DNA from: Actinomycetes bacterium
Lineage (GTDB): Bacteria; Actinomycetota; Acidimicrobiia; Acidimicrobiales; JAMCQF01
NCBI GenBank assembly: GCA_021851885.1
Contig: JAJZBS010000012.1
Location: 1-47,285 of the forward strand
Reading direction: 5' to 3'
DNA: 47,285 bases
Shown: piece after piece, positions 899 to 41,918 of the stretch
Position numbering within the stretch: position 1 is the first letter of the stretch
Layout: every line of letters starts with the position of its first letter
Position numbers and translations under genes: made by a program
The notes under the pieces: model-generated
Seen by the model: the letters and a program-made list of their open reading frames with translations, nothing else
What the model was told of the DNA's origin: nothing
Database searches by the model: none

Positions 899-899
899 G

Positions 900-1346: not shown

Positions 1347-1501
1347 GGCTCTCCCAGCCATTCGGCCCACATCGGCTCGGTCACATCGTCGCGCCAGGTG
1401 ACAAGATGGTGGGCCTGGTTGACGGTGGCGCCGGCGGCGACGATCCGGGCGTGCATCTCGTCGTCGGACAGGGACTCCACGAACGTGGTGAGGGTGGTCA
1501 T
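1343..1501 (-). CDS. Small hypothetical protein (52 aa)
   Basis: MTTLTTFVESLSDDEMHARIVAAGATVNQAHHLVTWRDDVTEPMWAEWLGEP*; fills the gap between coupled neighbours. Confidence 0.65.
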   Translation of the reverse strand: MTTLTTFVESLSDDEMHARIVAAGATVNQAHHLVTWRDDVTEPMWAEWLGEP

Positions 1502-10135: not shown

Positions 10136-10177
10136 ACTGCCGACATGTCTAGTGTTTCGACGCGGGGGTGGAAAGCA

Positions 10178-11119
10178 ATGAACGAAACGCTCGGACCGTA
10201 CATATGGCGCTACCTGGACGAGAGACGCCGCGCCGGGATGCTGGCTCCCCAAACCGCTCGCCGTTGCGGGTACCGCCTCCACCGCTTGTCCACGGCGTTC
10301 GGAGCCAGACCCCTCAACCACCTCAACCCACGCTACCTCGCTGAGTACGTCACCACCCTCGACGGCATGGCTGTCGGGACCCGCCGCCTCCACATCTCCA
10401 CCATCCGAGGCTTCTGCCACTGGCTCGTCGACACCGGCGTCATCAAAGCCGACCCCACGGCCAAGCTCCGCGGGCCCCGCAAACCACGCCGACTCCCCCG
10501 AGCTCTTCCAGCCGATCAGGTCGCCAAGATCCTCGCAGGCTGCCAAGACCCCCGAGTCGCCGCGATCGTCGCGTTGATGGTCGGCTGCGGGCTCCGCTGC
10601 GCCGAAGTGGCCGGCGCGCAGCTCGGAGACTACGACCGGACCGCACGCACACTGCGCGTGGTAGGCAAAGGCGGACACGAACGAGTACTGCCGATCCCGG
10701 AAGCCACTACCGTCGCTGTGTCCGCATACCTGAACGGAGCGCCGCAAGTAGCAGGGCCGCTTATCCGCTCCAAGACGAACCCGGCCGCACACCTCACCCC
10801 CCTCTACATCTCCCGTCTCGTCGGCGCGGCCATGGTCACTGCCGGAGTCAAGCACGCCCCCCGCGACGGCGTCTCCGCCCACGCCCTGCGCCACTCCGCC
10901 GCGACCGACGTTCTCGAGCACTCCGGCGACCTGCGCGCCGTGCAACAGATGCTCGGCCACGCCAACCTCGCCACCACATCCATCTATCTCGGCACCGCCC
11001 GCTTGGACCAGTTGCGGGAGGCTATGGAGGGTCGTAGCTACCGGGTGGTACCGTCCGCCGCCACTGCTGTCACTACGGCCGGCGTCACGCCGGCACTACC
11101 AGATAGGGGGAACAGATGA
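10178..11119 (+). CDS. int: Tyrosine recombinase / integrase (ORF opens at 10145)
   Basis: GCGLRCAEVAGAQLGDYD (Arg), GKGGHERVLPI, SAHALRHSAATDVLEHSGDLRAVQQMLGHANLATTSIYLG (H-x-x-R...H...Y). Confidence 0.92.
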   Translation: MNETLGPYIWRYLDERRRAGMLAPQTARRCGYRLHRLSTAFGARPLNHLNPRYLAEYVTTLDGMAVGTRRLHISTIRGFCHWLVDTGVIKADPTAKLRGPRKPRRLPRALPADQVAKILAGCQDPRVAAIVALMVGCGLRCAEVAGAQLGDYDRTARTLRVVGKGGHERVLPIPEATTVAVSAYLNGAPQVAGPLIRSKTNPAAHLTPLYISRLVGAAMVTAGVKHAPRDGVSAHALRHSAATDVLEHSGDLRAVQQMLGHANLATTSIYLGTARLDQLREAMEGRSYRVVPSAATAVTTAGVTPALPDRGNR

Positions 11120-11547: not shown

Positions 11548-11856
11548 CGCTGGCGTGATGGTGAAGTCGAGCATCCGGCCGTTGGGGAACGTTTGGCGCC
11601 CGTTCGTCCAGACGGCGTGGAACTGGGCGAACGCGTTGCCGTACCCGGCGGTGTCGGCCGGCTGCCACGCCACGCTCACTTGGCCGGTGGCGGCGTCGGT
11701 GATCGTGCAGGCCCGGTCGGCGATCACCGCGACGCCCCCGAGGGTGAGCGAGAAGGTGACCGTTGCTCCGGTTAGGTTGACCGGACCGTTGGCGTCGTTC
11801 AGCGTGGCGGCGACAGCGGGGAGGGTGTCGCCTTGGGCGATGGTGAAGTCGGCCAT
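11539..11856 (-). CDS. Ig-like/BppU-N-type baseplate or fiber-associated protein
   Basis: MADFTIAQGDTLPAVAATLNDANGPVNLTGATVTFSLTLGG...TGQVSVAWQPADTAGYGNAFAQF. Confidence 0.6.
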   Translation of the reverse strand: MADFTIAQGDTLPAVAATLNDANGPVNLTGATVTFSLTLGGVAVIADRACTITDAATGQVSVAWQPADTAGYGNAFAQFHAVWTNGRQTFPNGRMLDFTITPALS

Positions 11857-11858
11857 GG

Positions 11859-13520: not shown

Positions 13521-13534
13521 TCCGCTACCGACTG

Positions 13535-14401
13535 TCAGCCGACCATGACGGCCGTGTAACCGGTCGCCGGGACAGCCAAGACATCCCCGGTTGCCAGAGC
13601 CGTGCACGTGGAGGCCGAGGCGATGGCGTTGACCGCCAGCGTGCCCGCCGCGGTCACCGTGACCAGACAGGTGATGACAGCGTTCCCCGGATCCGAGGTC
13701 GTTCCATGAGCGTAGCCGCCACCGTATTGGGGGCCGGCGAACGTGCATGTGGCCGTCCCGGCCACAAGCTCAATCTGGTACGGCTGCCCCGTTGTGACAC
13801 CGACAACGTTCGTGTTGACGGTCACCAGCCATGTCCCGACCGCCAGGCTCGCCGTATTGAACACCAGCGTGGAAGTGGTGTTGATGGTGACGTTGGCGCT
13901 GATGGTGCCGCCGATAGCCGTCAGGGGGGGCGCCGAAACGGTCGTGGTCTTGTCGGTGAGGTTCGAGGCGCCTATCGAGGTCGTCGAGGCCGCCACATAC
14001 ACCTCCCCCAACAACACCGAACCCGCAGGGATAGCAGGTTTCACCGGTGGCGCACCGGTGGAGGTGGCGGTCCAGCCTGCCACAGTCGACGCCGTGCCGG
14101 TCGTCACGGACACCGCGCCGGAACTGTTGACGGTAACGATGTCGCGCCGGTCGCCCGCAGACGCCGCGGCTATCGCCAAAGACGCCACGGCTGCGACAGA
14201 CACGGTGGCGCCGTTCACGTACACGCTGCCCGCCGCCACCTGCACGGTCATGTTCGGCGTGGACTGCGCCGACACTTGGCAACCGGAGATGACCCCGGAC
14301 CCGTCGATGGCACTGCTCAAAGCGGCGACGTCGGTGGCATCGAGAACCGCCTGCGCGGGGAAGGCGGGGAGCGACTCGGCGTTCGGCGTGACAAGAGCCA
14401 T
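13535..14401 (-). CDS. Tail fiber / receptor-binding-like protein
   Basis: MTVQVAAGSVYVNGATVSVAAVASLAIAAASAGDRRDIVTVNSSGAVSVTTGTAS... typical fiber module. Confidence 0.65.
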   Translation of the reverse strand: MALVTPNAESLPAFPAQAVLDATDVAALSSAIDGSGVISGCQVSAQSTPNMTVQVAAGSVYVNGATVSVAAVASLAIAAASAGDRRDIVTVNSSGAVSVTTGTASTVAGWTATSTGAPPVKPAIPAGSVLLGEVYVAASTTSIGASNLTDKTTTVSAPPLTAIGGTISANVTINTTSTLVFNTASLAVGTWLVTVNTNVVGVTTGQPYQIELVAGTATCTFAGPQYGGGYAHGTTSDPGNAVITCLVTVTAAGTLAVNAIASASTCTALATGDVLAVPATGYTAVMVG

Positions 14402-14405
14402 CCCC

Positions 14406-15029
14406 TTACTCCAACGTCAGCGTGAGGTCCCCCGCCGGGATTGACGGCGACGACCCGCTACCGGCGGTGATGGCGGTGTTGAAACAGCCCCACTCCCACA
14501 CGTTGCCCGCCGTCGAAGCGTCGCATTTCATGTAGCCGACGCACTGCCCCCAGTTGGCGGTCGGCGTCGCGAACGTGATCGCCGCCGAAGTGACAGACGC
14601 CGATGGCCGCGCCGATGTGGCCGCAGCCCAGTTCGCTGTCGACGACGCCAGCGACGCCCGAGCATAAGAGCCAGCGGACGCCTGCTCGGCGCCCGTGAAC
14701 GTGCCGGCAGCGAACAGATCCGTCACCTCCGTCCACACCACCGTCCCATCGGCCACCGTCCCCCCGGCACCGGTCGACCCGTTGTTCAACCCGGTCGGGA
14801 TGGTCGACCCGGTGGTGCCAGCGGTGGTGCAGACGAACAGGCGCCCGGTACTGCCGGTCAGCGAGTTGAACGCCGTCGGGATCACGTACTCCCCGGCGGT
14901 GTACGCGGTCGACGCCTGCCACGATGGGGCGACCATCAGACCGAAATACCAGGTGGCGGGAGCGCCAAGAGCAGTCGCCTGGTTGAGGGCGTCGAGGACC
15001 TTCTGGTCGCCGTAAGTGGTCAGAGGCAT
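14406..15029 (-). CDS. Tail fiber-like protein
   Basis: MPLTTYGDQKVLDALNQATALGAPATWYFGLMVAPSWQASTAYTAGEYVIPTAFNSLTG... Confidence 0.65.
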   Translation of the reverse strand: MPLTTYGDQKVLDALNQATALGAPATWYFGLMVAPSWQASTAYTAGEYVIPTAFNSLTGSTGRLFVCTTAGTTGSTIPTGLNNGSTGAGGTVADGTVVWTEVTDLFAAGTFTGAEQASAGSYARASLASSTANWAAATSARPSASVTSAAITFATPTANWGQCVGYMKCDASTAGNVWEWGCFNTAITAGSGSSPSIPAGDLTLTLE

Positions 15030-15048
15030 AGGGGGGTTCTCCTTCGGT

Positions 15049-15828
15049 TCAGGATGCGGGGTGGCAGAACGGGCGCCGGCGCTCGGCTAGAGAGCTGATG
15101 TCATCTTGCAACTGGTCGACAGCGACTTCCGGGCCGCGGCCCGCCTCGATGAACTCGGCGGGGATCACCGCCCACGCCTCGGTGCAATAGGCAGCAAGCC
15201 ACGGGTACGACACCGCCGTCACGGCCCCCCACGTGACAGCGTACGCCCACTGGGGGTCGTAGCCGGCCAACAGGATGGCGTGCCCGCCGACCGGCCTGTC
15301 GCCGGTGTACGTCCACGGCAGGCCGGCAGCGAACTGCCGCTCCGCCGACGCTGGCAGCGCGACGCCCAGGTAGGCGAACCCGTACGCGGCCACCGCCTGG
15401 TGCACGTCGAGCAGGCTGGTGTGATCCACCGGCGCGAACGCTGCGATCCGGTTCCCGTCGAACAGGCCGTGCTGCTGCCATGCGGTGAGGACATCCGCCT
15501 CGACGCAGCCGGTGTCCGCGCCGCCGGTCAACGCCAGGTACTGGGCCACGGCCTGGTTTGCGTCCGGTGTCGGGTCCGAGGTGCCGACCTCGGCGTTGGC
15601 GGCCATGACCGCGTGCGCCGCCGCGGCGATCGTGCAGTCCCCGACCGGCACACTGCCGTGCGCGGTGAGCGTCGGGTCCGGGCCGTTGCCGAGCATCAGC
15701 CAGTCCCCCACCGCCGGCACCGGGCGCTGCTCCGGTGGTGCGGGGAGCCGGCCGTGGGCGTACACCTTCAGCTCGGCGACCTCGTTCTGGCGGATCGGGT
15801 CGAGCGCCCCGCGCAGCAGCCCGGTCAC
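15049..15828 (-). CDS. C39/papain-like cysteine peptidase family protein
   Basis: GTG 15828; VPVGDCTIAAAAHAVMAANAE (Cys) and RPVGGHAILLAGYDPQWAYAVTWG (His). Confidence 0.65.
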   Translation of the reverse strand: MTGLLRGALDPIRQNEVAELKVYAHGRLPAPPEQRPVPAVGDWLMLGNGPDPTLTAHGSVPVGDCTIAAAAHAVMAANAEVGTSDPTPDANQAVAQYLALTGGADTGCVEADVLTAWQQHGLFDGNRIAAFAPVDHTSLLDVHQAVAAYGFAYLGVALPASAERQFAAGLPWTYTGDRPVGGHAILLAGYDPQWAYAVTWGAVTAVSYPWLAAYCTEAWAVIPAEFIEAGRGPEVAVDQLQDDISSLAERRRPFCHPAS

Positions 15829-16169
15829 GCGCCGGCCGGCGGTGTGACGGCGGCTGGCGCCGGCTTGACGTGGTGGGCGCCGACCCTGGTCAGCGCCGTT
15901 TCCACGACCGAACCACGAAAGTACGCCCCGTAGGTCACCTGGCTCCCGGCCGCCACGAGGGCGACCAGCTCCACCAGCGGCGTCGTCTCGAACGACGCCC
16001 CCGCCAACACGATGCCGACCACCGCGACAGCGGCCGACACCACCAGGGCGATCAGCTGCTTCACCTGGGCAGACATCTTGGCGGTCTTGAGTAGCGACAC
16101 GATCGGCGGCACGACAGCCGACCCGACAGCGGAGATGGTGCCGACCTCGATCGGCGTCAGATTGGTCAT
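15825..16169 (-). CDS. Two-TM holin-like protein
   Basis: AVGSAVVPPIVSLLKTAKMSAQVKQLIALVVSAAVAVVGIVLAGASFETTPLVELVALVAAGSQ. Confidence 0.55.
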   Translation of the reverse strand: MTNLTPIEVGTISAVGSAVVPPIVSLLKTAKMSAQVKQLIALVVSAAVAVVGIVLAGASFETTPLVELVALVAAGSQVTYGAYFRGSVVETALTRVGAHHVKPAPAAVTPPAGA

Positions 16170-16270
16170 TGGGGGGCTCCTTGCTTGAGCATGTGGGCGT
16201 GGACCACATCGATCCGGGCTCGCGCCTCTGCAGCCACGTAGGCGTCACGGATCACGGTCAGCTGGTGCGT
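16166..16270 (-). pseudogene. Orphan C-terminal remnant of a PLD-like gene
   Basis: [34 protein letters not shown] matches [28 protein letters not shown] of the intact ORF; in-frame TAA directly upstream; stop coupled (ATGA) to 15825-16169. Confidence 0.85.
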
Positions 16271-16287: not shown

Positions 16288-16785
16288 ATGGATGCGTGTG
16301 CGTGTGGGTGTGGGCAGATCCCAGTCCGAGGCCGCTTTGTCCGTGGTCACCAGTTTCGGGATGCCGCTATCCGAGAGAAGCGTGCGGCATCCCTGCGGGG
16401 TCGTCCCCTGAGCGCAGCCCACCGAGCGGCCCTTTCCCGGGTGCGCACTGGCGTGGTGTTCACGCCAGAACGGCGTGCCGCTGTCGCAGCGGGCCGCATG
16501 GCCGGAGACTCTCGTCCGCTGTACCGCGTGGAGGACCGAGGGTTCACCACGCCCTGCTGGGTCTGGAATCGGGCCCTCTTGAAGACTGGCTATGGGGCTG
16601 TTCGGCGCGGTGGACGCAACTTTCGAGCCCACCGCTGGGTCTACGAACAGCATGGCGGCGCCATCGCCGCGGGGCTGGTCCTGGATCACCTGTGTGTCGT
16701 CAAGGCATGCGTCAACCCGGACCACCTTGAGCCCGTCACTCGCGCCGAGAACACTCGGCGTCATTTTGGGAGCCGTCCAACCTGA
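16288..16785 (+). CDS. HNH homing endonuclease (opposite strand, inside the PLD-like locus)
   Basis: [12 protein letters not shown]..., then [37 protein letters not shown]...[30 protein letters not shown]. Confidence 0.88.
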
Positions 16786-17297
16786 AGCATGTGGGCGTGG
16801 ATGCAGTCAATGCGTGCCCGAGCTTCGGCTGCGATGAAGGGGTCCCTCAGCACAGAAAGTTGGTTGTCTTGCTGCGTCTCGCCCGAGTCGGACCAGTTCG
16901 TCGAGCCGGTCACCACGTCGAGCCCGTCGACGATCAGCAACTTCATGTGCATGATCGCCCCCTTCTCGCTGCGCCCCACCGCCATGCTGTTCGCCGGGAA
17001 GGCAGCCTTGGCGAGCAGCGCCCGCTCGTGGACGCCGCCGGCCTGGGACGAGTCCAAGGTGAGCTGCACGAAGATGTGCTCGTCGTCCAACTTGGTGTGC
17101 AGCGCGTTGCACAGGTCGTCGTCGTCGAAGCCGAACATCGCGACCACGAGACTCTTGGTGGCCGACACCGCCAAGTCCACGAGCACCCCGTGCACGTCAT
17201 CCACAGGGCTGTAGAACGTGAGGGCGTTGCCGGGATAGCCGACCACGAACGGCGAGTGCTTGTACTTGGCGAGCACCGACAGGTCAGGGAGTGCCAT
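16761..17297 (-). CDS. Phospholipase D-like / nuclease single-HKD protein
   Basis: [30 protein letters not shown] (HxKxxxxD, GSxNWS). Confidence 0.8.
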
Positions 17298-17404
17298 CAA
17301 TGCCACCTCCCGCAGTAGATGCAGGGCCCTTCGCCGTCGGGGTAGGTCGCCACGCCGAGCCGGTGCAGGAACCGCCGCCACGGAGACTGGTCGCGGTAGG
17401 TCAT
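17297..17404 (-). CDS. Small CxxC protein (35 aa)
   Basis: [40 protein letters not shown] junction with the PLD ORF. Confidence 0.55.
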
Positions 17405-17715
17405 CTCACGAGCGCCTTCCCGATGACCACGCCGGTCCAGGTGCCAGCGAAGTTCGCGGCCGACACCGAGGCGACGATGACCAATGACCGCTTGTTGCGC
17501 CAGCCGTGTTTGAGGATCGAGTCCAACGCAAGCACCGAGCAGATCAGGCTCGCCAGCCATCCGGCCACGTCCATGGCGCCGGCCAGGTTCGGCTGAAAAT
17601 GGGACTCGAACACGACCATGGCGGTGCCGAGCAGATCGGCTGCGAACATCGCGAGGAACGAGGCGCCGGCCGCTTTCCACAACGGCATCCGGTGGACGGG
17701 GGGAACGTCGGTCAT
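17401..17715 (-). CDS. Multi-TM holin-like protein
   Basis: [24 protein letters not shown]...[20 protein letters not shown]...[23 protein letters not shown]. Confidence 0.6.
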
Positions 17716-18020
17716 GGCCGCTCAACTCCGTGGTGGTCGAGCAGCGCCTCCAGGTGCGCCAAGATGACGGCGTTGGTCTGCTCGTTACGGTCGACGCGCC
17801 GCAAGATCGTGGCGTCCCGACGCGTCTGGGAGAACATGGCGATGCCGACCACCGACTCGATCAGCAACGCCATGTAGACGCCGCCAGGTTCCACCACGAG
17901 CGCACGAACCCGTTGCCGGCGAACCAGCCAACGGCGGACGATGCGCTGCACCTGCCACGACAGCTCCTCGCCGAGCGTGAGCCGGTCGCTGGTCGCCGGG
18001 TCCGTGAACGTTCGTCTCAC
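17712..18020 (-). CDS. Membrane protein
   Basis: Central TM GGVYMALLIESVVGIAMF; coupled ORF. Confidence 0.5.
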   Translation of the reverse strand: MRRTFTDPATSDRLTLGEELSWQVQRIVRRWLVRRQRVRALVVEPGGVYMALLIESVVGIAMFSQTRRDATILRRVDRNEQTNAVILAHLEALLDHHGVERP

Positions 18021-18352
18021 CGCTGGCTCGGGTCCGGCGGGCAGCCGGCGAGCAGCGGCGGGGGCGCATGCCCGGTCGCCGCCGCCAAGATCCGGTCCTC
18101 ATGGTTGTACAAGCACTCCTGCACCCGCACCAGAAGTTGCGTCCGCTCCCGGGCGGCCTGGACCAGTTGCCGGTCCAGCAGGTTCTCGTCGTGGATCGTG
18201 ACGGCCCCGAGCACGATCAGCAGCCCGCTCACCACGACAGCGCTGGCCGCCATCAGGCGGATCTGCCAGCGGGTGGTCCGCTCTGTCGCCGCCATCAGCT
18301 TCTCCGCCGCCTCCCTACCGGCCTCGACCCGCACCCTGGTCCGCTCGGTCAT
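18017..18352 (-). CDS. Single-TM protein
   Basis: RLMAASAVVVSGLLIVLGAVTI TM; ATGA overlap. Confidence 0.55.
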   Translation of the reverse strand: MTERTRVRVEAGREAAEKLMAATERTTRWQIRLMAASAVVVSGLLIVLGAVTIHDENLLDRQLVQAARERTQLLVRVQECLYNHEDRILAAATGHAPPPLLAGCPPDPSQR

Positions 18353-18729
18353 GTCCGCGCCTTCTGAACTTGGGCGAGCACCGCCGCCGTTGTGTGGTCG
18401 ATCCGGTCCGCCAATGTGACGAACCCGTGGTCGACCCGTTTCGTCAGCTCCTCGACAGCGGCGCGCTGGGTGACTTGCTCGTTGAGCCGGCCGATCTCCG
18501 CCTTCGCCTCGACCAGCAGCGCACGCAGTTCGGTCTGCTGCCCGGTGAGCACATCGATTTGGTGTTGCTGCTCCGCGTTCTGCGCCTGCAACGCTGTCGC
18601 CAGCTCCCGCCATGTGGCGAGCGCCGGCTCGACCCGGCCGGACCGGCCGGCCCGGTAGGCGACCCCGCCGACCGTGCCCGCGGCGACCGCGACAGCGGCG
18701 AGGACTTCGAGGAGCTGGTAGAGGCTCAC
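18349..18729 (-). CDS. TM plus coiled-coil protein (lysis-associated candidate)
   Basis: MSLYQLLEVLAAVAVAAGTVGGVAYRAG...LQAQNAEQQHQIDVLTGQQTELRALLVEAKAEIGRLNEQVTQ. Confidence 0.55.
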   Translation of the reverse strand: MSLYQLLEVLAAVAVAAGTVGGVAYRAGRSGRVEPALATWRELATALQAQNAEQQHQIDVLTGQQTELRALLVEAKAEIGRLNEQVTQRAAVEELTKRVDHGFVTLADRIDHTTAAVLAQVQKART

Positions 18730-18733
18730 AGGT

Positions 18734-19612
18734 TCAGGCGGTGAGCGCGGCGATCTGCTGCGGGGAGAACGTCACGATGTCGGTCGGGGCGCCGATGGCG
18801 GCGAGTTTCGCTTGCCACACTTTCAGGTCGGCGGGGTCGTGGACGGGGACGGCGTGGCCGCCATCGACCAGGTAGACGGTGGCTTGGTCGATGGCGCGGG
18901 CGAGGAACGGGGGCATGCGCTTCTCCTTCGGTGACGGTCTCGGCTTCGGTGACGGCGGCGCGGTGACGGTGAACAGCCGGTCGAACGCGGCCTGGTCAAA
19001 GCACACGTTCACATCGCACGGGCTGATGTTCGCGACCGCAGCAGACGACGTGTACTGGCGGGCGGTGTAGGCCGTCCAACCGGAGAACGGCTGGAACCAG
19101 CCGGGTGTCACCCCAGCGACGATCTGTCGCGGGTTCCCGGCGCCGGGCACGTAGTTCGGCCAGATCAGCCCGCACCTCGACGCCCGGACCGACACCCCGG
19201 CGGACGCCGCGACCCACGCGGCGGTGTACACCGAGACAGGGGCGTGCGGGGCGAGAACAGCCAACTCGGCCAGGAAGTCGTCGACGACCGCGGCGGCCGG
19301 GATCTGCCCGTTGTCGGCCTCCCAGTCCAACATCAACGGCACGCCCAGACCGCCGCACACGGTTTGGACGACCCCGGCGAAGTGCTGCGCCTGCGCCTGC
19401 CCGGAGCCGGTCTGGTCGAGGAAGTGGTAGGCCATCGTCGGCAGGCCGGCGGCTTTCGCGGCCGCCCAGTTCGCGGCGAACAGCCCGTCGACGAACCCGA
19501 TCCCTTGCGACGCCTTCGCCGACACCGCGCACATCCCCTCCTGCTTCGCCAGCGCCGCGTCCAACGCGACGCCGTTCGTGTTCGACACGTCAGGGAACAA
19601 CAAAGCCGCCAT
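18734..19612 (-). CDS. GH25-type (lysozyme) endolysin
   Basis: FPDVSNTNGVALDAALAKQEGMCAVSAKASQGIGFVDGLFAANWAAAKAAGLPTMAYHFLD...VPLMLDWEADNG...VSVYTAAWVA...ARQYTSSAAVANISPCDVNVCFDQAAFDRLF. Confidence 0.85.
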   Translation of the reverse strand: MAALLFPDVSNTNGVALDAALAKQEGMCAVSAKASQGIGFVDGLFAANWAAAKAAGLPTMAYHFLDQTGSGQAQAQHFAGVVQTVCGGLGVPLMLDWEADNGQIPAAAVVDDFLAELAVLAPHAPVSVYTAAWVAASAGVSVRASRCGLIWPNYVPGAGNPRQIVAGVTPGWFQPFSGWTAYTARQYTSSAAVANISPCDVNVCFDQAAFDRLFTVTAPPSPKPRPSPKEKRMPPFLARAIDQATVYLVDGGHAVPVHDPADLKVWQAKLAAIGAPTDIVTFSPQQIAALTA

Positions 19613-20370
19613 CACGCACCTCCGCAAGCGTTGTGCCACACGATCATCACGGTCCGGCCGGACGGCGCCCCGGCCGCGCAGACCGTCGCGGTGCCGGCAC
19701 GCTCCTGCGCGACGGTCTGCACCCAGTTCGACCACAGTGCGTCCGCCGGGACCAGGCGGGCCGGCACCCATCGCCGGTCCGGTCGCTCCAACCAGATGTT
19801 GGTGAAACGGGCGGTCCTGAAGTCCGGCCACGGGATCTGCGGCTGCCAACCCTCCGCCACCCACTCCACCGTCCGGGACACCGGCCCGCAGTAGCGGACC
19901 CGGGTCGCCCACCACCAACGCTGACGGGCGTCCACGAGACTCAGCCGCCACTCGCATGTGCCGGTGGAGATGACCGCCGTGCGCACCCGGTCGCCGGGGC
20001 GGACCGGGGCGCCTATCCACTGCGGGACGCAGCCGCGGCCGGGCTGGCGGCCGTAGGGGCAGGTCGTCCACCACGGGCTGTCCCCACCGGCCGCCTGGGG
20101 GGCGACCGAGACCCCGGTCTGGATGAGGGCGACGCCGGTCGCCCCGTACACCCCCACCCACATGTTGACCTGCGACGCCCACGCCGATCCGGCCGCGACC
20201 GCCGGCACAGCGAGCGTCGCGACCGTCCCGGTGTAGCCCGTGGCTGTCAGGTCGGCCCCCGCCCAGTACGCCCCGGACTGCCCTTCCGGCGCTGGCCGCC
20301 CCGCTGTGGGGGCACCGACACCAACGGTGATGGCGGCCGCGCCGAGCACGGCGGCGAGAACACGTCTCAT
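19612..20370 (-). CDS. Secreted eqolisin-like (peptidase G1, glutamic) peptidase
   Basis: RBS AAGGAGG; signal peptide MRRVLAAVLGAAAITVGVGAPTAG; YWAGADLTATGYTGTVATLAVPAV, VNMWVGVYGATGVALIQTGVSV (Gln), SRTVEWVAEGW (Glu). Confidence 0.7.
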   Translation of the reverse strand: MRRVLAAVLGAAAITVGVGAPTAGRPAPEGQSGAYWAGADLTATGYTGTVATLAVPAVAAGSAWASQVNMWVGVYGATGVALIQTGVSVAPQAAGGDSPWWTTCPYGRQPGRGCVPQWIGAPVRPGDRVRTAVISTGTCEWRLSLVDARQRWWWATRVRYCGPVSRTVEWVAEGWQPQIPWPDFRTARFTNIWLERPDRRWVPARLVPADALWSNWVQTVAQERAGTATVCAAGAPSGRTVMIVWHNACGGA

Positions 20371-20398
20371 ACCTATCCTCCTTCTCGGGGGGCCCCCG

Positions 20399-20917
20399 TC
20401 AGGCGAGCTTGCCGAGCACCACCCGGTCGGAGATCGACGGGCCTGCCCCCCGCGCCACGAACACCACATCCCCGGCGGCCGGCGTGTACGAGGCGAGGTA
20501 GCGGACACCGGGCGTGAGGTACTGGGTCTGCCGGAGGGTTTGGGTGCCGTCCAGGTACACGTCCAACGTGTTGGCGGACACGACTGTGGCGCCGCTCGCC
20601 TGCGACGACGGGAGCTCCGGGATGACGCCGACCGTGTACGGGCCGGCGCCGTTGACCGATGTGACGCGCACTGTCTGGTCGGTTGACGCCAGGGTGCCGA
20701 CGAGCAGCAGGTCGTTGAAGATCGGCGCGGCTGTGACAGACAGGCTCGTCGCCCCGGCCGCCGCGGCAGCGGCCAGCGTGGATGAGAACCCGCCGTGCAA
20801 TACGTAGACCACACCCCACTGGGTGGGGGCGGTCGTGAACGGGTCTCCGACCAGGTACCGCCGCAACGCCTGCGCTGTCGCGTTCGGGCCGACCCCAACA
20901 CCCGGGGTGCGTCTCAC
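20399..20917 (-). CDS. Minor tail / fiber-associated protein
   Basis: GTG 20917; ATSLSVTAAPIFNDLLLVGTLASTDQTVRVTSVNGAGPYTVGV... Confidence 0.55.
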   Translation of the reverse strand: MRRTPGVGVGPNATAQALRRYLVGDPFTTAPTQWGVVYVLHGGFSSTLAAAAAAGATSLSVTAAPIFNDLLLVGTLASTDQTVRVTSVNGAGPYTVGVIPELPSSQASGATVVSANTLDVYLDGTQTLRQTQYLTPGVRYLASYTPAAGDVVFVARGAGPSISDRVVLGKLA

Positions 20918-22159
20918 GCCACGACCCGGCCGGTGATCGTGCATGTGTCCGCGTAGCTGACGTTGAACGAGACGGTATCAATCACCACGAATATGTTGTT
21001 GAGCCCCACCCTTGGCCGGGTGATCGAGACTTTCTGGTCCACATCGAAGATCGGGTTGGGCGGGATGTCGATCGAGATCTGCCATGCAGCGGCGAGTGCC
21101 GCCTGGAGGTCGTTGTTGGCCATCTCCTGCGCCTGCGCTGTCGATGTGGGCAGGTTGGTGGACACGAACTGGGGGATGTCGCCCATGCCCCCATCGACGT
21201 AGGTTGGGCTGCTCGGGTTCGTGTCCCCGGCCGAGGCGAGGACCGGCTGGCTGTTACCCGAGGCGGTGTACGGGGCGTTCGATGTGCCGGTACCGGTGAC
21301 GAACACGTCGTTGTAGATCCCGTCGCGGGTCATCGTGATCGTCGTCGCGACCGGCGTCGAGTAGGGGGAGCCGAACAGTTGCGCGGACCCGCCGCCGGAC
21401 CCGGCGCCGCCGGCGCCGAAGATCGCGGTCTCCTGGTCGGTGAAGTTCCAGAAGATCGGCTGCGTGGCGGGGTCCGGGATCGGGTAGCCGGTCACGACAC
21501 CGTTCACGTCGAAGAACAGTTCGTAGCCGACCGCGTTCGCCATGTCCAACGCCGCCTGCCACGGGTCCGAGCCCTGCCCGTAAGAGGCGACAGGGACGGT
21601 CGCGTCGGTGGGGACGATGTTGTAGGTGAGCGCCGGCGGCCGCGGCCCCCACACCTGGTTGAGCAACGCCATGATCTCGGCGACGAAGTTCCCGGACGGG
21701 GTGGCGGGGAAGTTGTACGGCTGTAGGAACGCCCGCTGCGAGATCACCCATGACCGGTCGTAGACGGCCAATGTGAGGGCGAGGTCGTTCACGGTGTCTT
21801 GGACAGTGGTGGTGGCGATCGCGAACAGGCCGAGCGGAACCCACTGTTGGATTTCGGCGGTCTTGCCGCCGGTGGGGAGGCTGGCGATGCCGATCTCGAT
21901 GAACACTTCGTTGCCGAACGGGGCGAGCAGGCTCGACGGGGCGACGGGGAGGATCGGTGGTGGGGGGATCGACGGGACGACCTGCATGGTGATGGTGCCT
22001 TGGCGGCGGAACTCGCTGTTGCGGTCGACGGTGACGGCGAGGGCGGAGACTGGGAGGGTGGTGGTGGTGGGGGCGCCGCCGCTGTAGACGGTGAGCCTGG
22101 ACGCGACGAGCGTGGCGCCGTATCTGAGGGTGTCGACAAAGCCTGCTGTGTAGGCCATC
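20914..22159 (-). CDS. DUF5047-like minor tail (tail-tip) protein
   Basis: SRLTVYSGGAPTTTTLPVSALAVTVDRNSEFRRQGTITMQVVPSIPP...LAVYDRSWVISQRAFLQPYN...DVDQKVSITRPRVGL. Confidence 0.7.
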
Positions 22160-24770: not shown

Positions 24771-25135
24771 GCTGCCACCCGCCTCGCCTGCTCGGCCTCG
24801 ACCAGCTTGCGGAACTCGCCCGACAGCCGCTTGCGCTTCACCAGCATCCCCAGCTGCGCCACGTCGAGCAGGGCCAGGTGCTCGGGGAGCGCGGAGGTGC
24901 CCCGCTGGCGTGCCTCGGCCAGCTCGATGTCACGCACCTTCGCCAACTCACGGCCCGCGGCATGACCCCAGTCCCGATGCGACACGCGAAACGACGCGCG
25001 CCCGACGCCGGCCAGTTCGCAGACGAACCAGCCGTGACAGCACGCCGAGCACAGCCACGGCGCCGTCTCCGGGCCGAGCGCCACCGGGACCAGCGGGCCG
25101 CCACACGCCAGGCAGGTGCGCAGGTAGCCGGTCAC
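24767..25135 (-). CDS. Zinc-ribbon protein
   Basis: CLACGGPLVPVALGPETAPWLCSACCHGW. Confidence 0.6.
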   Translation of the reverse strand: MTGYLRTCLACGGPLVPVALGPETAPWLCSACCHGWFVCELAGVGRASFRVSHRDWGHAAGRELAKVRDIELAEARQRGTSALPEHLALLDVAQLGMLVKRKRLSGEFRKLVEAEQARRVAA

Positions 25136-28100
25136 CGGTACGCGTTCCCGGCCTTCAGCCGGGCCACCAGCTGCTGGTCGTGAGCGACCAGCACCTGCCG
25201 CAACGCCCGGCCGATGTCCGCCCCGTTCCCTGTAGGGGCGTTCACCTGGATGTGGTAGATCGGCGAAAAGCCCCCGCCGCCCAACCCGCCGGCACCGCCG
25301 ACACCGACACCCCCCGCCAACGAGCCGGGCAGCGGCGCCACACCGCCAGCGAGGGCGCCCATGCCGCCACGCAACGGCAGCACAAGCTCCGGGACGCCGC
25401 CCTCACCGACCATCGCCAACGTCGGGCGCGTCACGATCCCTCCCGCAGCCAGGCCGAGCACATGGAACACGGAGCCGACCGCCCCGAGCGCCCCGCCCCC
25501 GAGGTGACCGATCGCGCCGCCCAGCGAGCTGATCCCCCCGATGATGGTTTTCACCGCCCCGCCGATAGCGGAGAAGATCGGCTGCAACACAGACCACACC
25601 GTCTGCACAGCGCTCTGTATCCCTTGCCACACCGTCTTCCACACGGACAGCACCGCACGGATCGGGTCGACCAGCGTGACCGCGGCGACAGCCTTGACCG
25701 CCTGCCACACCGTCTTGATCGCCCCCCAGATCGTCTGCACAGTCGTCTCGAGAGCGCCCCACACCGTCTTCCACGCCGACGACAGGACGCTCCCCACCGT
25801 CCGCCACACCGAGGTGAGAGCGGCGAGGAATGTGTGCCACGCCGTCTTCAACACACCCCAGATCGCGACCACCACCGCCTTGATGGCCGCCCAGTCGGCC
25901 TTCCACGCCGAGGACAGAGCAGCCGCCACCGTCTTCCACGCAGAGGTGAGCGCCTTGGTCACCGCCCGCCACGCCGCCCCGAGCGCGTGCCACACACCAA
26001 GCGCCACCGCCTTGATCGTCCCCCACACCTGCTTCCAGTGGGTCGCCACGTAGATGACCGCGGCGATCAGGGCCATGACCCCGGCAACGATCCCGAGCGT
26101 GGCGGCGTTCTCGGCGATGAACGCCGCGGTCGCCGAAGCGGCCATGGCCACGTTCTCCGCGATGTAGCTCGCCGCCATCACCGCGTGGACCGCCACCCAC
26201 ACCGCAGCGCGGGCGATCATCCTGGCGACCTGCACCGCGTACTGCGCGACCATCCGGGCGCCCGACGCGACGAACGAGGCGACCCCGCTCGCGAACCGGG
26301 CCACCATCGACCCGAAACTCGAAGCGAACGACGCGATCTTCCCGGGAAGAGCGACCAGGGCCTTCCCGAACCCGGCGATCTGGCCCGGGATCGCCGCGAT
26401 CGACCGGCCGAACCCGGCGATCTTGCCGCCCATGCTCCCCAGGAACGGCACCAGCTTCCCTACCGCGCTGCGCACCACCAGGATCGCGGCCGCCCACCCG
26501 GCGAACGTTGCGACCATGTTCCCGGTCCCCGTCTTGCCGGTGCCGCCGAACACCCACCGCAGCGCCCTCCCCAACGGCTGTAACGCGTCCGCCATCAGAC
26601 GGGTGGTAACCGTCATGATCTGCATCATCGCCTTCACGAACGACAGGGCCACCGGCACCACCGCTTGCAGCACCCCGCCGAACCCTTTCACCATCTGCGC
26701 GTAATGGGCGGAGAAGAACCCGTGCAACGCGTTCTTGTTGCCCATAGCGGACAGGAACTTGGCGACCGAACCGAGCACACCGGTGAACACCTTGATGATC
26801 CCGGTCCCCACCCCGGCGGTCACCCGCCCCAGGTCCCACAGGACCCGGATGATCGACAGCACGAACCGTCCCCACGTCCGGAAGATCCCGATCAACTTGC
26901 CGATCGTCCCCGCCAGCGCCGCCGCGTGCCCCGGCTTGTTCAAGTTGGTGAGCAGCCGGGCGATCGCGTGGATGAACGGGCCGACATACTGCGCCGAGTC
27001 ACGCACCACCTTCGCGAACAGCTCGATCCCCTGCGTCAGAGCTTTCATCCCGGTCGGCAAGTTCTTCGTGAAAATGCTCTCCAGGTCCTTGAAGATCCCG
27101 AGCCCGCCGAACTTGGTGCCGGACTTCAACCAGCCGAACAGGCCGCCCGCGCCGGTCTTCGCGTTGAACGGCTGGTTGAGCGACTGGGAGATCAGCTTCA
27201 TGTTCTTCGCCGCGTACTGCCCGATGATCGGCAGGAACTTCTCTCCGACCTTCATCGCCTGGTTGAGGATCTGCGCCCCGCGCTTCTCCGCCAACCCAGT
27301 CGCCTGGTCGAACACCGTCTCGAACTGGCCGGCCGTGTTCGCCGCAGCCAGCACCGCGCCCCGGGCGATCGGGCTGAAAGACCCGAGCGTGGCGTTCAGG
27401 TTCGCCTGCGCTGTGCGCACGTTCTGCAACGCCGCCTGCGCCACCGCCGACGCCGCCCCATACCGCTTCGCGAGGTACTGATAGTTCTGCATCGCCGTGT
27501 TCAACTGGTTCTGGGCGGCCACCACCAACTTGATGTCGTTGGCCGCCTGCCCCATCCCCGCCATGTTCGTGCCCATCCCGACACCCATCACCCCCATCGA
27601 GCCAGCGCCGAGCAGCCCCCCCCCCAAGGCCGCCTCCATCCCGGACAGGGCGACGCCGATGCCCGCGGTGGCGATGTGCTCCAAGCCGAGCCCGAACAGC
27701 GACCCGAGGCTCCCCATCGCAGCGAACCCGGCCACCCCGCCGCCGGCCTTCCCGAACCCGAGGCCGCCCAAGAGCCCGCCCCCCCCACCGCCGCTCCCCG
27801 CTTTCGCTCCGAGCAGAGCACCAAGCCAGCCGGGCAGCCCAGCCTTACCACCAGCCGCAGCCTCGCCGCCCGCGGCGCCGCCCATGGTGGTCACCAATGA
27901 GTCGGTCTTCAACCCGGCCAGCTGCTCACGCAGCACAGCGATCGAAGCCTCCGCCGCCGCGATATTCGCATCAATCTTGATGTCGAACGGCGACAGCATG
28001 CGCAGCTCGGCCCGTATGCGGGCGATCTCCGCCACCAACGGCGCCGCGTCAGCACCCAACCTCGCGTCGTACACCTGCCGGGCGAAGTTCAACAACTCCG

Positions 28101-28284
28101 CCTTCGTCGCCGCCAGATCGGACAGGAACACCCGGTCGTCCAACCCCACCTGCGGGTTCGTGTCCTGCTTGCCGAACGCGGCGAGCAGAGCCATGTCCTT
28201 CTTCAGGGTGGCAGCGAACAGGGCGTCCTCGGCGATGATCTGGACAACCACCGGCGGCAGATAGCCGCTCGACGCCCCAGGCAT
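25132..28284 (-). CDS. Tape measure protein
   Basis: 1050 aa, hydrophobic segments, Trp-repeat SVWKTVWQGIQSAVQTVWSVLQPIFSAIGG; C-terminal GEGGVPELVLPLRGG. Confidence 0.9.
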   Translation of the reverse strand: MPGASSGYLPPVVVQIIAEDALFAATLKKDMALLAAFGKQDTNPQVGLDDRVFLSDLAATKAELLNFARQVYDARLGADAAPLVAEIARIRAELRMLSPFDIKIDANIAAAEASIAVLREQLAGLKTDSLVTTMGGAAGGEAAAGGKAGLPGWLGALLGAKAGSGGGGGGLLGGLGFGKAGGGVAGFAAMGSLGSLFGLGLEHIATAGIGVALSGMEAALGGGLLGAGSMGVMGVGMGTNMAGMGQAANDIKLVVAAQNQLNTAMQNYQYLAKRYGAASAVAQAALQNVRTAQANLNATLGSFSPIARGAVLAAANTAGQFETVFDQATGLAEKRGAQILNQAMKVGEKFLPIIGQYAAKNMKLISQSLNQPFNAKTGAGGLFGWLKSGTKFGGLGIFKDLESIFTKNLPTGMKALTQGIELFAKVVRDSAQYVGPFIHAIARLLTNLNKPGHAAALAGTIGKLIGIFRTWGRFVLSIIRVLWDLGRVTAGVGTGIIKVFTGVLGSVAKFLSAMGNKNALHGFFSAHYAQMVKGFGGVLQAVVPVALSFVKAMMQIMTVTTRLMADALQPLGRALRWVFGGTGKTGTGNMVATFAGWAAAILVVRSAVGKLVPFLGSMGGKIAGFGRSIAAIPGQIAGFGKALVALPGKIASFASSFGSMVARFASGVASFVASGARMVAQYAVQVARMIARAAVWVAVHAVMAASYIAENVAMAASATAAFIAENAATLGIVAGVMALIAAVIYVATHWKQVWGTIKAVALGVWHALGAAWRAVTKALTSAWKTVAAALSSAWKADWAAIKAVVVAIWGVLKTAWHTFLAALTSVWRTVGSVLSSAWKTVWGALETTVQTIWGAIKTVWQAVKAVAAVTLVDPIRAVLSVWKTVWQGIQSAVQTVWSVLQPIFSAIGGAVKTIIGGISSLGGAIGHLGGGALGAVGSVFHVLGLAAGGIVTRPTLAMVGEGGVPELVLPLRGGMGALAGGVAPLPGSLAGGVGVGGAGGLGGGGFSPIYHIQVNAPTGNGADIGRALRQVLVAHDQQLVARLKAGNAYR

Positions 28285-37129: not shown

Positions 37130-37480
37130 TCAGTCCACCTTGTCGTTCCATGCGAGGAACACGGTCGTATAGGGGGCCGCCAGCTGCGCGTTGGCGACGC
37201 TGTTGTCGATGTAGAGGTCGACGTGGTGCTTGCGGATCCACTTCGCCTTCGCCTTGTGCGGAGGGTCCCCGAACAGGACGATCTTGTCGTAGCAATGCCC
37301 GCAGCCGATCTCTTCGAGGAGCTGCTTCTTCTCACGCTTGTCGGCCTTGGTCGGCTTGGGCGCCGAGCATCCGGTGAGGATCACGACCTGGTGGCCCGCT
37401 GCGCGCAGCGACGACATGAGGCTCTGGAAGGTGGCGGGGTCCTCGTCAACGGTCCCATTCAGGTCGAGCCCCACCTTCAC
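37130..37480 (-). CDS. HAD-superfamily phosphatase/kinase-phosphatase-like protein
   Basis: GTG 37480; VKVGLDLNGTVDEDPATFQSLMSSLRAAGHQVVILTG... Confidence 0.65.
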   Translation of the reverse strand: MKVGLDLNGTVDEDPATFQSLMSSLRAAGHQVVILTGCSAPKPTKADKREKKQLLEEIGCGHCYDKIVLFGDPPHKAKAKWIRKHHVDLYIDNSVANAQLAAPYTTVFLAWNDKVD

Positions 37481-40344
37481 TTGGGCGCTCCTCTGGTTGG
37501 CAGGAATGCGTAGTAGGGAGCAACGGCGCAGCGCTCGTGGGGATGCACCGGGATCGGCCCGTTGGGCCAGCGCGCGCCGATGGGGATCGGCGACGCCGCC
37601 TCGTTCTGCTTGCACAACACGCAGGCGGTCGGCTCGGCGAGCCACGCCAGCTCTTGGACACCGTTGGCCCGGTAGGTGTCCATAGCTCCGGCGCCGAACG
37701 CCCGGGTCAGTTCCGTCTCTGCGATCAGGCGTGCCCGAGCCGGGTCGCCGACGATGGCGCCGACGGCCTCCTGCGTGCGGGCGGGGTCCCACCCTTCTCG
37801 GATGCCCGAGGCGATGGCATCGCCGATGCGGTCGATCTGGGTGGTGGTGATCTCGGCCATCCACACCTCCGCGTCCGCCAGGAGCGCTCGGAGCCCGCCC
37901 GAGGCGGCCGCCGCGATCATCGGCGCCAGCTCGGGGCGCCAGTCCTCGATGAACTGCTCAGCGCTGCGGTCCAAGGTGGCGGACCACGCCGGCATCTGAC
38001 CGCCGGACGCTTGGGCGGCCTCCGCTGCGCCCTGCGTCCAGCCGTCCGCGTAGATGGATGCGAAGACCGCTCGCAGTTCAGTCAGGTGCCGAGCTGCTGA
38101 GCGCAGAACCGTGAGCGCCGCCTGGAGCGCGTCGGTCGCGTAGCCCTTCTCGACGTGGGCTGCGAGGGCCTCAGCCACCGCTCGCTCACCCAGTTCCCGA
38201 GCGAAGGCTTGCTGGAGCAACGGGGTGTAGTGCTCCACCAGGCGGTCCGTGTTGTGGTGAAAGTCGGCCCACGTGGCGACCCTGCGGGCCTTGGTGAAGG
38301 CGGCGTCGACCTGCTCCCGGCTGGACGCGTGGCGGAGCGCCGCCCACACCTGGTCGTACCGCGCTGAGGTGATCTGGGAATCGACGAAGGGGCGAGGGGA
38401 GCGGCCCTTGTCCACCCGGCTGCGCGACTGGGAGCGCCAGCGGCGAAGGTCCGCCTGTTCGGCCGCCTCTTGCTCGGCGCTTTCATCAGCGGGGCTCTGC
38501 CCGTAGCCGGCTGGTTCGCGGGGGTGGCTGGCCTCGTCGATGGGCCACGGGTCGTCGCCGGCTTCGAGCGCCTTGCGTGCGGCTGCCAGCCGGGACTTTC
38601 CCTCGCCTGGCAGAGCCCGGCTGCGCACGAATGCGTGAGGGTCGTCGGGGTCGCTCTGCGCTGCGGCGCCGACAAGAGCCGTCATGCCCGGCGGCACGTA
38701 CTCTCGGGGGACCACGGAGCCAGGCACCGGCGCACCGGTGAGTGGGTCGATCTGGCCGGCAACCGATAGCAAGTAGGAGACCGGGATCGGGCCTAGGCGC
38801 ACCGAGTCGAAGAACCGGGGGACCTTCTCGGCGGGGTTGGTGGGGTGGCCGAGCACCTTCTCGCGCACCTCGTCAGGACTCTCGGCGCCGATGCTCACGT
38901 AGATCTGATGCGCCTGAGCCTCCATGAGGCGGTCTTCGCGCTCGCGTCCCGTGTCGAAGCGCACCTGGACCGGCAGGTCCAAGTCGCACTGCAACACGTC
39001 GTCGAGCATGTCCTCGTAGTACGCGCAGTGCGGGAGCGTGTTGATCCTGAACTGCACATCCATCTGCGTGTCGCCGCTGGCCTTGTTCACCCCATCGGTG
39101 AACCCGAGGTCGCTCGGCGTCATCTGAAACGCGGCCACCGTCCGGCGCATCACGTACTCGGCGATGTGCGGGTCGAACTGCTGGGGCTTGTAGAACTTGA
39201 GGTCCGTGCCCGCCGGCAGCCAACGGAGACCCCAGCGCTCGGACTGGTCGCCGAAGGTCCAGTCGTTCCACGTCTCCTGCCACTCCGCGAGTGAGTCCGG
39301 GTCCGATTGGCCTTCGGGCGCCACAGCGAAGGCTTCCGGAACTTGCCCCGTGGTGAAAAACTGCAAAAAGTAGGTCTGGAGACGCACGTCGGTGTTTGCG
39401 TTTATCAACACTGTCTCGAGTGGCGCCACCCCGTAGGGCGACTCCGGCAACGGCCACATCGGGACGTACACGAGGTCTCGGGTGGTCAGCCAGTCCCACG
39501 GGATGCCCTGAATGAACTGCTGGAAGGCGGGCGCGTCGCCCTGGGGGGTGGCCCCGAAGTAGTCCAGCATGGGAGCGACCGTGGTGGCGTCGATCACCTG
39601 CAAAGAAACCAGCCGTCCGGCCCGGTCGCGCTGGCGGTAGAACGCGCCAGCGTCGTACCGCCACACGTTCATGGCATGCTCTGCAAGCCAGTTGCGCAAG
39701 CTTTGGATGCCGTCTGGCTTGCGTAGGAACGCCTTGGCGGCGGCGATCTCCTTGACCGGGTTGTCCTCGTAGCCGTCCATCGGCTCGAAGCGCAGCCGCA
39801 TCGAGCGCAGGTCGTTGATGGCGTGGCGAGTGCAGATGGCCGCCACGTCGTAGCCCTCGAACAGCCGCTTCAGGGTGGCGAACGGGATCCGGTCCGGGCG
39901 GGTGTCGGTCGTGATGTTGCGCCCGACGGTGTAGTCGTAGTTGCGGGGGCGCCGTCCGTAGCCGTAGTAGGGGACCAGCGGGGCGCCGGGGGCGAAGGGC
40001 TCCACCCAATCCATGCCCTGGCGTCGCAGAGCCACCTCGATCTCCGCTGGCGTCACACTCGCCGACGGGCCTAGGTGGCGGTGGGCCCGTTCGGCGAGCG
40101 TCTGCGCCGAGACCGGCCGGGCGTTGCCGAGGTTGCCGGCCGGTCCGCCCGAACGGGTCCAGGAGGCGGCGGTCTGAACGGCCTTGACCAGTTCGAGCAC
40201 CTGGGGCCGGTCCGGGCCGGTCATCTCAGTGTCGAGCTTGGGGTCCCGGGCGACGCGTAGTGCCTTGGTGAGCAACTCGCTGCGGGCCTCGATGGTGAGG
40301 GGCGCCGAGGTGTGGCGCCGATACCGGCGGAGAGACAGAGCCAA
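37477..40344 (-). CDS. Portal protein fused to a MuF-like C-terminal domain
   Basis: TTG 40344 preceded by GAGGAGG; portal core; C-terminal RLIAETELTRAFGAGAMDTYRANGVQELAWLAEPTACVLCKQNEAA...VHPHERCAVAPYYAFL. Confidence 0.85.
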   Translation of the reverse strand: MALSLRRYRRHTSAPLTIEARSELLTKALRVARDPKLDTEMTGPDRPQVLELVKAVQTAASWTRSGGPAGNLGNARPVSAQTLAERAHRHLGPSASVTPAEIEVALRRQGMDWVEPFAPGAPLVPYYGYGRRPRNYDYTVGRNITTDTRPDRIPFATLKRLFEGYDVAAICTRHAINDLRSMRLRFEPMDGYEDNPVKEIAAAKAFLRKPDGIQSLRNWLAEHAMNVWRYDAGAFYRQRDRAGRLVSLQVIDATTVAPMLDYFGATPQGDAPAFQQFIQGIPWDWLTTRDLVYVPMWPLPESPYGVAPLETVLINANTDVRLQTYFLQFFTTGQVPEAFAVAPEGQSDPDSLAEWQETWNDWTFGDQSERWGLRWLPAGTDLKFYKPQQFDPHIAEYVMRRTVAAFQMTPSDLGFTDGVNKASGDTQMDVQFRINTLPHCAYYEDMLDDVLQCDLDLPVQVRFDTGREREDRLMEAQAHQIYVSIGAESPDEVREKVLGHPTNPAEKVPRFFDSVRLGPIPVSYLLSVAGQIDPLTGAPVPGSVVPREYVPPGMTALVGAAAQSDPDDPHAFVRSRALPGEGKSRLAAARKALEAGDDPWPIDEASHPREPAGYGQSPADESAEQEAAEQADLRRWRSQSRSRVDKGRSPRPFVDSQITSARYDQVWAALRHASSREQVDAAFTKARRVATWADFHHNTDRLVEHYTPLLQQAFARELGERAVAEALAAHVEKGYATDALQAALTVLRSAARHLTELRAVFASIYADGWTQGAAEAAQASGGQMPAWSATLDRSAEQFIEDWRPELAPMIAAAASGGLRALLADAEVWMAEITTTQIDRIGDAIASGIREGWDPARTQEAVGAIVGDPARARLIAETELTRAFGAGAMDTYRANGVQELAWLAEPTACVLCKQNEAASPIPIGARWPNGPIPVHPHERCAVAPYYAFLPTRGAPK

Positions 40345-40385
40345 TCTTCTGCCTCCTCGGCCGCGCCGGAGTCTCGCAGGAGCTT

Positions 40386-41918
40386 CTAGTGCGCCGCCTG
40401 GCGGGTGGCTGCACAAAACACGCAGGTCCCGGTGGTCCGCCAGCGGTGCTCGCAGCGGGCCACCCTGGCGGGGGGGGAACGCCGGGCGGCCACGCTGCGG
40501 TGATGGCGCCGAACCGCTCGGACCGCTGGGTCTGGGTCGGTTCCTCGCGCTGCGATCTGGCTGCGCATGAACTCCAGGTAGGCGGGTCCCACTCCCCACC
40601 CGGCCTGGCCGAGCAGGATATGGCACGCCATGCCGATGGTCACTGCCTGGTCGTCGTGGGCCGCCTTGTCGTGGTCCAAGCGGACCACGCCCGGCGACGA
40701 CTCCCGTAGGCGGACCCGCAGCAGCTCCTCTTTCAGTTCTGGGGTGTCGCGCAGCCATATCTGCTGGTTGCGGAACGTCTGGACCAGGGCCGTGGCGACC
40801 TCACCCACCGACGAGGCGGTGAACTGCCACTCGCTGGCCCGCACTCCCCGCCGGTTGAGTGCCTGCACGCTGCCCCGGAACTGCGTCGGGTCTGCGTAGA
40901 CCTTCGCCCGGTTCCACCGCCGCGACTCCCGCACCAACCAGTCCTCGACCGACGCGAGACGCACCGGCCGCCGCTTCGAGCCGAGCCAGCGTTCCACATG
41001 GTCGACCACGACCCGGTGCGGGCCGAAGCGGTCCGTCGAGTCCACCGGCTCCTTGTGAGCGACCACCATCACAGTGGCATCGCGGGTGATCCCCACGTCT
41101 ACGCAGATGATGTAGGCCACCCCCGGAAGAGGGACCGGCGCGGAGAGCAACTGGCATGCCCAGTCGTAGTTCTCCGGGCTGACGGCTCGGTCCTCGTCCT
41201 CGGCCCAGTGGTTGAGGATCAGCCGCTCGTACTCGCTCGGGCGCAGCTCCCGGCGCAGCGACTCCAGCTCGATCGGATCCTGCCACGGCACCGGCCCGGG
41301 CGCTTCCGACACCCGCCAGGTGGGGTCCGCCTTGGCCTTGACCATCACGTCCTCGAAGGACCAGTGCGACGGCTCTCCAGCCGAGGAGAGCAGCACCAAA
41401 CGGCAGCCGTCCACCTTCTGGACCGTCGAGCGGATCGCGGTCCAGACCCGGCGAGCCGCGCGGGTCTCCGGCCACTGGGCGAACTCGTCGCAGATCAGCA
41501 GATGCGCATCTCGCAGTCCCCATGCGCCGGAGTCCGACAGGGACAACACCCTGATCCACGCCCCGTTGGCCCCGACAAGGCGCTCGTTCTCGACGCCGAG
41601 CAGCCCGCCCAGCTCAGGAGTGCGTGTGACGAGCCCAGCTGCCGCGTCGATGAGGATCGCCGCCTGCTCGGCATTGGAAGCCACCACGTAGCCACGGGCA
41701 CGCTCGGGGGCCTCGACCGCCAACCAGGAGAGGGCCACGCCGCCGAGGTCCGTGGTCTTACTTCCCCCGCGAGGGCGGGTGATGAAGTGCCGGTGTGGAC
41801 GCCCGGCAGAGAAGATCGCGGTGGCGTCCGCCACCTGGAACTCGGCGGCCACCTCTCCCCACCGGGCGCCGGACTCGAGCACCAGGCCGAACATCATGTC
41901 CAGCGCTGCGTCGGACAT
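40386..41918 (-). CDS. terL: Terminase large subunit
   Basis: HFITRPRGGSKTTDLGGVAL (Walker A-like), AHLLICDEFAQWPE, nuclease VDVGITRDATVMVVAH. Confidence 0.85.
   Translation of the reverse strand: MSDAALDMMFGLVLESGARWGEVAAEFQVADATAIFSAGRPHRHFITRPRGGSKTTDLGGVALSWLAVEAPERARGYVVASNAEQAAILIDAAAGLVTRTPELGGLLGVENERLVGANGAWIRVLSLSDSGAWGLRDAHLLICDEFAQWPETRAARRVWTAIRSTVQKVDGCRLVLLSSAGEPSHWSFEDVMVKAKADPTWRVSEAPGPVPWQDPIELESLRRELRPSEYERLILNHWAEDEDRAVSPENYDWACQLLSAPVPLPGVAYIICVDVGITRDATVMVVAHKEPVDSTDRFGPHRVVVDHVERWLGSKRRPVRLASVEDWLVRESRRWNRAKVYADPTQFRGSVQALNRRGVRASEWQFTASSVGEVATALVQTFRNQQIWLRDTPELKEELLRVRLRESSPGVVRLDHDKAAHDDQAVTIGMACHILLGQAGWGVGPAYLEFMRSQIAARGTDPDPAVRAVRRHHRSVAARRSPPARVARCEHRWRTTGTCVFCAATRQAAH

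Follow-up and report, generated by a model that had tools for sequence, protein, structure and literature searches.

A predicted secreted G1 (eqolisin-like) peptidase encoded beside the endolysin of a phage of a probable Acidimicrobiales host

Between the tail genes and the endolysin gene of what is most simply a complete temperate tailed phage lies a gene for an eqolisin-like (G1) glutamic peptidase, with a predicted signal sequence and a Gln/Glu pair that maps to the catalytic dyad of the family. The novelty is one of setting, with G1 peptidases encoded in two groups of phages, and of the departures displayed by this particular protein, not of a new fold or chemistry. The observation made in an earlier note on this DNA is confirmed and its interpretation appears largely right; the roles it suggested (action on surface proteins, prophage release or a moron) are conjectural.

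The gene in its phage

The window is the whole 47,285-nucleotide stretch that was analysed. Its first 126 nucleotides are repeated at 47141-47266, followed by 19 unmatched nucleotides, and joining the ends creates one intact 122-aa ORF read in the same direction as its neighbours. Since this repeat circularises the contig, and structural, lysin and integrase genes are present (terminase, portal-MuF fusion, prohead protease, tape measure, hub, GH25 lysin and tyrosine integrase), the sequence most simply represents a complete circular temperate member of the Caudoviricetes, of approximately 47.1 kb. A search for the attachment site of the phage found none. The GC content and tetranucleotides agree (r 0.92-0.96) with those of further contigs in the assembly, the rpoB of which matches Aciditerrimonas ferrireducens at 84% and bog and palsa MAGs at 82-83%, and the host is probably a member of the Acidimicrobiales. 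The named species related to it are acidophiles, and it is probably an actinobacterium of soil or of an acid habitat. The principal features are as follows.

40386..41918, minus strand, terminase large subunit (phrog_9)
37477..40758, minus strand, portal-MuF fusion (phrog_2662, PF04860; Arthrobacter phage Sonali 37%)
25132..28284, minus strand, tape measure protein (phrog_1535)
20914..22158, minus strand, tail/baseplate hub protein, 414 aa (phrog_1887; matches actinophage minor tail proteins and a baseplate hub protein)
20399..20944, minus strand, 181-aa hub-distal tail protein conserved in relatives (42% to L072; 40% to a fibre-like ORF of L201, 648 aa long, over its N-terminal part)
20377..20383, minus strand, Shine-Dalgarno sequence AAGGAGG, 6-nt spacer to the eqolisin ATG (read from the sequence)
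20290..20370, minus strand, predicted signal sequence, about residues 1-27 (n-region MRR and hydrophobic stretch, KD)
19612..20370, minus strand, eqolisin-like (G1/A4) peptidase gene, 252 aa (PF01828, AF2 and Foldseek)
18734..19612, minus strand, GH25 endolysin (PF01183 61.8 bits, phrog_291)
17401..18729, minus strand, small ORFs with predicted TM segments after the lysin, candidate holins (KD scan; function suggested by position)
10145..11119, plus strand, tyrosine integrase of a temperate phage (PF00589 88.6 bits)

The eqolisin ORF starts with ATG at 20370 and ends with TGA at 19614-19612. These limits are exactly those reported previously, with the correction that the gene is on the minus strand. 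The sequence described as an ideal Shine-Dalgarno is indeed positioned 6 nt before the ATG, and the proposed signal peptide corresponds to a hydrophobic leader, residues 4-22, behind MRR (KD 1.87 in a KD scan). The hub gene is upstream of that for the 181-aa tail protein, which a 28-nt gap separates from the eqolisin. On the other side the eqolisin stop codon overlaps the ATG of the GH25 lysin (TGATG), and a GGAGG for the lysin is contained within the last eqolisin codons. This arrangement bears out the placement at a tail/lysis junction of an actinophage, beside the endolysin. The long ORF on the opposite strand is a shadow ORF, with a GC3 of 0.61 as opposed to 0.89 for the eqolisin ORF, which resembles its neighbours (other late genes, 0.83-0.91).

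Other ORFs nearby encode a PLD-like protein (PLDc_2) among the lysis genes (16761-17381, minus strand), a homing-type HNH_3 endonuclease that is oriented against the late genes surrounding it (16288-16785, plus strand) and a 399-aa protein (15049-16248, minus strand) that has, by eye only, the look of a papain-like cysteine peptidase, its sole match being phrog_19005, of unknown function. Elsewhere in the window DUF1643 and WhiB domains are combined in one ORF (315-1370, minus strand), and a long repetitive protein rich in Ala, Ser and Thr, with no Pfam match, is encoded at 11859-13748 (minus strand).

Family, fold and active site

Peptidase_A4 (PF01828) is the sole Pfam family matched, at 52.5 bits (E 5.8e-14, residues 35-200) where the curated cut-off is 22.3 bits; the model has no match in 14 control genomes. 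An AlphaFold (AF2) model, derived from an alignment of 35 bacterial homologues of the same family as the query, has pLDDT 80.6 and pTM 0.83. Comparison of this model with the PDB using Foldseek, a check suggested in the earlier note in case the fold should prove not to be that of an eqolisin, returns scytalidoglutamic peptidase (SGP) as the top three matches (2ifr, 2ifw and 1s2b; TM 0.66-0.75, best E 9e-12), with neprosin and aspergilloglutamic peptidase (AGP) ranked lower. The protein is predicted to adopt the eqolisin double beta-sheet fold. Four codons are of particular relevance to the active site.

20119..20121, minus strand, putative catalytic Gln, Q84, equivalent to Q53 of SGP (invariant column in 36 aligned proteins; SGP alignment)
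19852..19854, minus strand, putative catalytic Glu, E173, equivalent to E136 of SGP (invariant column in 36 aligned proteins; SGP alignment)
20146..20148, minus strand, Y75 in place of D43 of SGP (alignment; departure from family)
20065..20067, minus strand, T102 in place of E69 of SGP (alignment; departure from family)

The catalytic dyad maps to Gln84 and Glu173, in agreement with the Gln and Glu singled out previously, and both residues fall within strands that the AF2 model predicts (its positions 54-61 and 140-147). The protein also retains W67, the LIQTG motif and all four of the conserved glycines. The claim of a full eqolisin pattern requires qualification: the PF01828 match and the Gln/Glu columns stand, but the equivalents of D43 and E69 do not. 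E69 is described as strictly conserved in eqolisins, and G and S are tolerated elsewhere at the D43 position (PMC6154417). A threonine at position 69 also occurs in the chromosomal homologues L001, from the same genome, and L037, the motifs of which are otherwise canonical. Only a few residues separate leader from domain, such that the propeptide is almost absent. On account of this and of the two substitutions, peptidase activity is probable rather than certain. The composition of the 224 residues that follow residue 28 is 18 Trp, 19 Arg and no Lys, with a pI of 9.3.

The window protein shares with SGP/SCP-B (PDB 1s2b, 2ifw; MEROPS G1) the predicted double beta-sheet fold, the Gln/Glu dyad, W67 and the glycines. 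It differs in the two substitutions and the near lack of a propeptide, sequence identity is 17-19%, and SGP is fungal whereas the window gene belongs to a phage. The predicted fold and the dyad are also common to AGP (PDB 1y43), but that enzyme is processed into two chains whereas the window protein is one chain with hardly any pro-region. A bacterial secreted G1 enzyme is known from a thermoacidophile, pepG1 of Alicyclobacillus sp. DSM 15716; unlike the window gene it is chromosomal (PMC3009609). The strawberry mottle virus domain provides a further viral glutamic protease, with a concanavalin-like fold modelled in this plant-virus domain, but it processes the polyprotein of an RNA virus and differs from the eqolisins in the sequence and spacing of the catalytic residues (PMC6357015).

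Origin and possible roles of the window eqolisin

Eqolisins are best known from moulds and other fungi. That generalisation, made in the earlier note, does not extend to the Acidimicrobiales, in which they are not mainly fungal enzymes but common in chromosomes, PF01828 proteins being present in 44 of 198 genomes of the order. With the window protein as query the matches are 33/397 in the host order as against 9/397 across the phylum, and elsewhere in the host genome, on contigs other than the window, two strong eqolisins are encoded. Chromosomal Acidimicrobiales eqolisins (L177, L001, L002 and others) resemble the window protein in matching PF01828 and, for L001 and L037, in the threonine at 69, but have longer N-terminal regions and at most 36% identity to it; no close relative was found, that value being the best. 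In the tree the window protein occupies a very long branch (3.46) joined to a fungal pair, which is probably long-branch attraction. The simplest origin for the window gene is that it was captured from the chromosome of a host.

The hub is common to four IMG/VR contigs and one prophage (50-65% identity). L198 and L201, the two relatives readable far enough downstream, have no ORF matching the eqolisin profile. In L201 a fibre-like gene is followed by a lysin-like gene with no Pfam match, and in L198 a GH12 glucanase with a hydrophobic leader (11071-12045) is encoded about 4 kb downstream in the late region. A second tailed phage of the assembly that contains the window (G000:C209, L074) possesses a distant hub (about 26-31% identity), then a spike-like and a lysin-like protein, with no eqolisin at that place. 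Because neither the readable relatives nor, at that place, this second phage has an eqolisin, the window gene looks like an insertion into a tail-to-lysin gene order. A sister prophage contig in genome G021 stops short of the position, and neither PF01828 nor the lysin was found elsewhere in that genome. The late region of L201 also encodes a 393-aa protein with a leader and no Pfam match (11712-12893).

What might such an enzyme do for the phage? We propose, with confidence that is about evenly balanced, a secreted G1 endopeptidase active in acid, which is produced late, acts on the outside of the cell and either aids release or spread or nourishes the infected cell. In a temperate phage whose host belongs to the Acidimicrobiales, the gene would probably be transcribed with the late tail/lysis operon, and its translation would immediately precede that of the GH25 endolysin and be coupled to it. 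The signal peptide would take the product across the membrane ahead of holin action, and the enzyme would work only outside, in an acidic setting, through the Gln84/Glu173 dyad. There it may cut cell-surface, matrix or released proteins, and such cleavage would help progeny to leave and spread, or feed the infected cell. We infer late expression, export, activity at low pH and the nature of the target from the gene and its context together with the acid optimum of G1 enzymes (PMC3009609). Counting against an active enzyme are the very long branch and the replacement of E69 and D43, two residues with a supporting role at the active site of characterised enzymes.

The same facts would fit a lysogenic cargo, that is, a moron or auxiliary gene by which the prophage gives its host an extra secreted, digestive acid protease, much like those encoded by the host chromosome itself, with no part in release. 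We consider this doubtful, though still worth serious attention. The gene has a strong Shine-Dalgarno sequence of its own, the phage has an integrase, the host genome already contains two strong eqolisins, and related phages lack the gene while one has a GH12 enzyme, as cargo genes do; because that GH12 enzyme also looks like cargo, a host-feeding role of this kind is compatible with the data. However, the eqolisin gene is within the late array and its stop overlaps the lysin start, therefore expression in the lysogen is not expected. That the fold is catalytically dead or repurposed, for example as a secreted or virion-surface binding protein, appears improbable. The two substitutions, the long branch and the odd composition are in keeping with such a fate, but both catalytic residues, W67, the four glycines and LIQTG persist, and L001 and L037 also have threonine at position 69.

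A virion-associated tail-tip protease that cuts surface proteins during entry might be imagined from the adjoining hub and tail-tip genes; it is very unlikely, as the leader would send the protein out of the producing cell and not into virions, and there is no fusion to a tail domain. That faulty assembly has placed a bacterial gene in this contig is scarcely credible. The assembly is of metagenome type and has 221 contigs, of which the window is one, but the gene fits between tail and GH25 genes, 28 nt from the former and overlapping the latter, and the two ends of the contig share 126 bp and yield an intact ORF once joined.

A second group of phages with eqolisins

No phage eqolisin was found in PHROGs, in INPHARED by tblastn with four eqolisins, or by a structure search of BFVD, where the best TMq was 0.49 and the matches, as far as named, were beta-sandwiches of other families. 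Literature searches found no report of an eqolisin in phages, and a 2019 review records that, besides the strawberry mottle virus domain, no viral protease with a similar fold had been reported (PMC6357015). Scanning GTDB and IMG/VR contigs with the window protein as a single sequence gave no match, alignment A2 found no relatives in IMG/VR, and the 36-row alignment was too diverse for use in a pattern scan. Scans of IMG/VR with eqolisin alignments identified 20 contigs, some near-identical (L046-L063, L077 and L082), that carry a phage eqolisin. The hits L039, L041, L042 and L044, which have no match to the eqolisin profile, were dropped. The eqolisin of L090, an IMG/VR contig of 68.8 kb, was left uncounted; bacterial-looking genes surround it and it is probably in host flank near a prophage edge.

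The 20 contigs have about 44% GC, extend up to 38 kb and encode a P22-like portal, terminase and major capsid protein (MCP). Wherever the flanks reach, the gene order is terL, portal, eqolisin, MCP. Seven of these podophage-type eqolisins were scanned with PF01828 and score 88-107 bits. The aligned proteins keep the equivalents of D43, E69, Q53 and E136, a leader and a pro-like region, and they form one clade (100/100); SGP is again the first match to the predicted fold of one of them. In common with the window protein they are phage-encoded, with a predicted leader peptide, the G1 dyad and a predicted SGP fold. They differ in the type and GC content of the phage, in the position between portal and capsid genes, in the canonical D43 and E69 and in retention of the pro-region. 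The occurrence of a canonical eqolisin at a fixed late position in a second phage group suggests that enzymes of this kind are of use to phages. By AU test, the window eqolisin may share its origin either with the podophage group (p 0.29) or with L001/L037 (p 0.49), neither being rejected, and independent capture is therefore not shown.

A broader idea, speculative and rather unlikely as it stands, is that phages of acidic or soil habitats repeatedly took up secreted glutamic peptidases as an acid-switched, extracellular arm of release. If true, the peptidase would be silent in the neutral cytoplasm and active once outside. The two phage groups raise a question that can be tested: why secrete an acid protease from a cell about to burst? 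Those who annotate phages gain a family that PHROGs appears to lack.

In one contig of the second group the major capsid gene (L060, 13732-15893) is in two phrog_1357 pieces, split by a LAGLIDADG endonuclease ORF (14124-15182) in what looks like an intron- or intein-type insertion.
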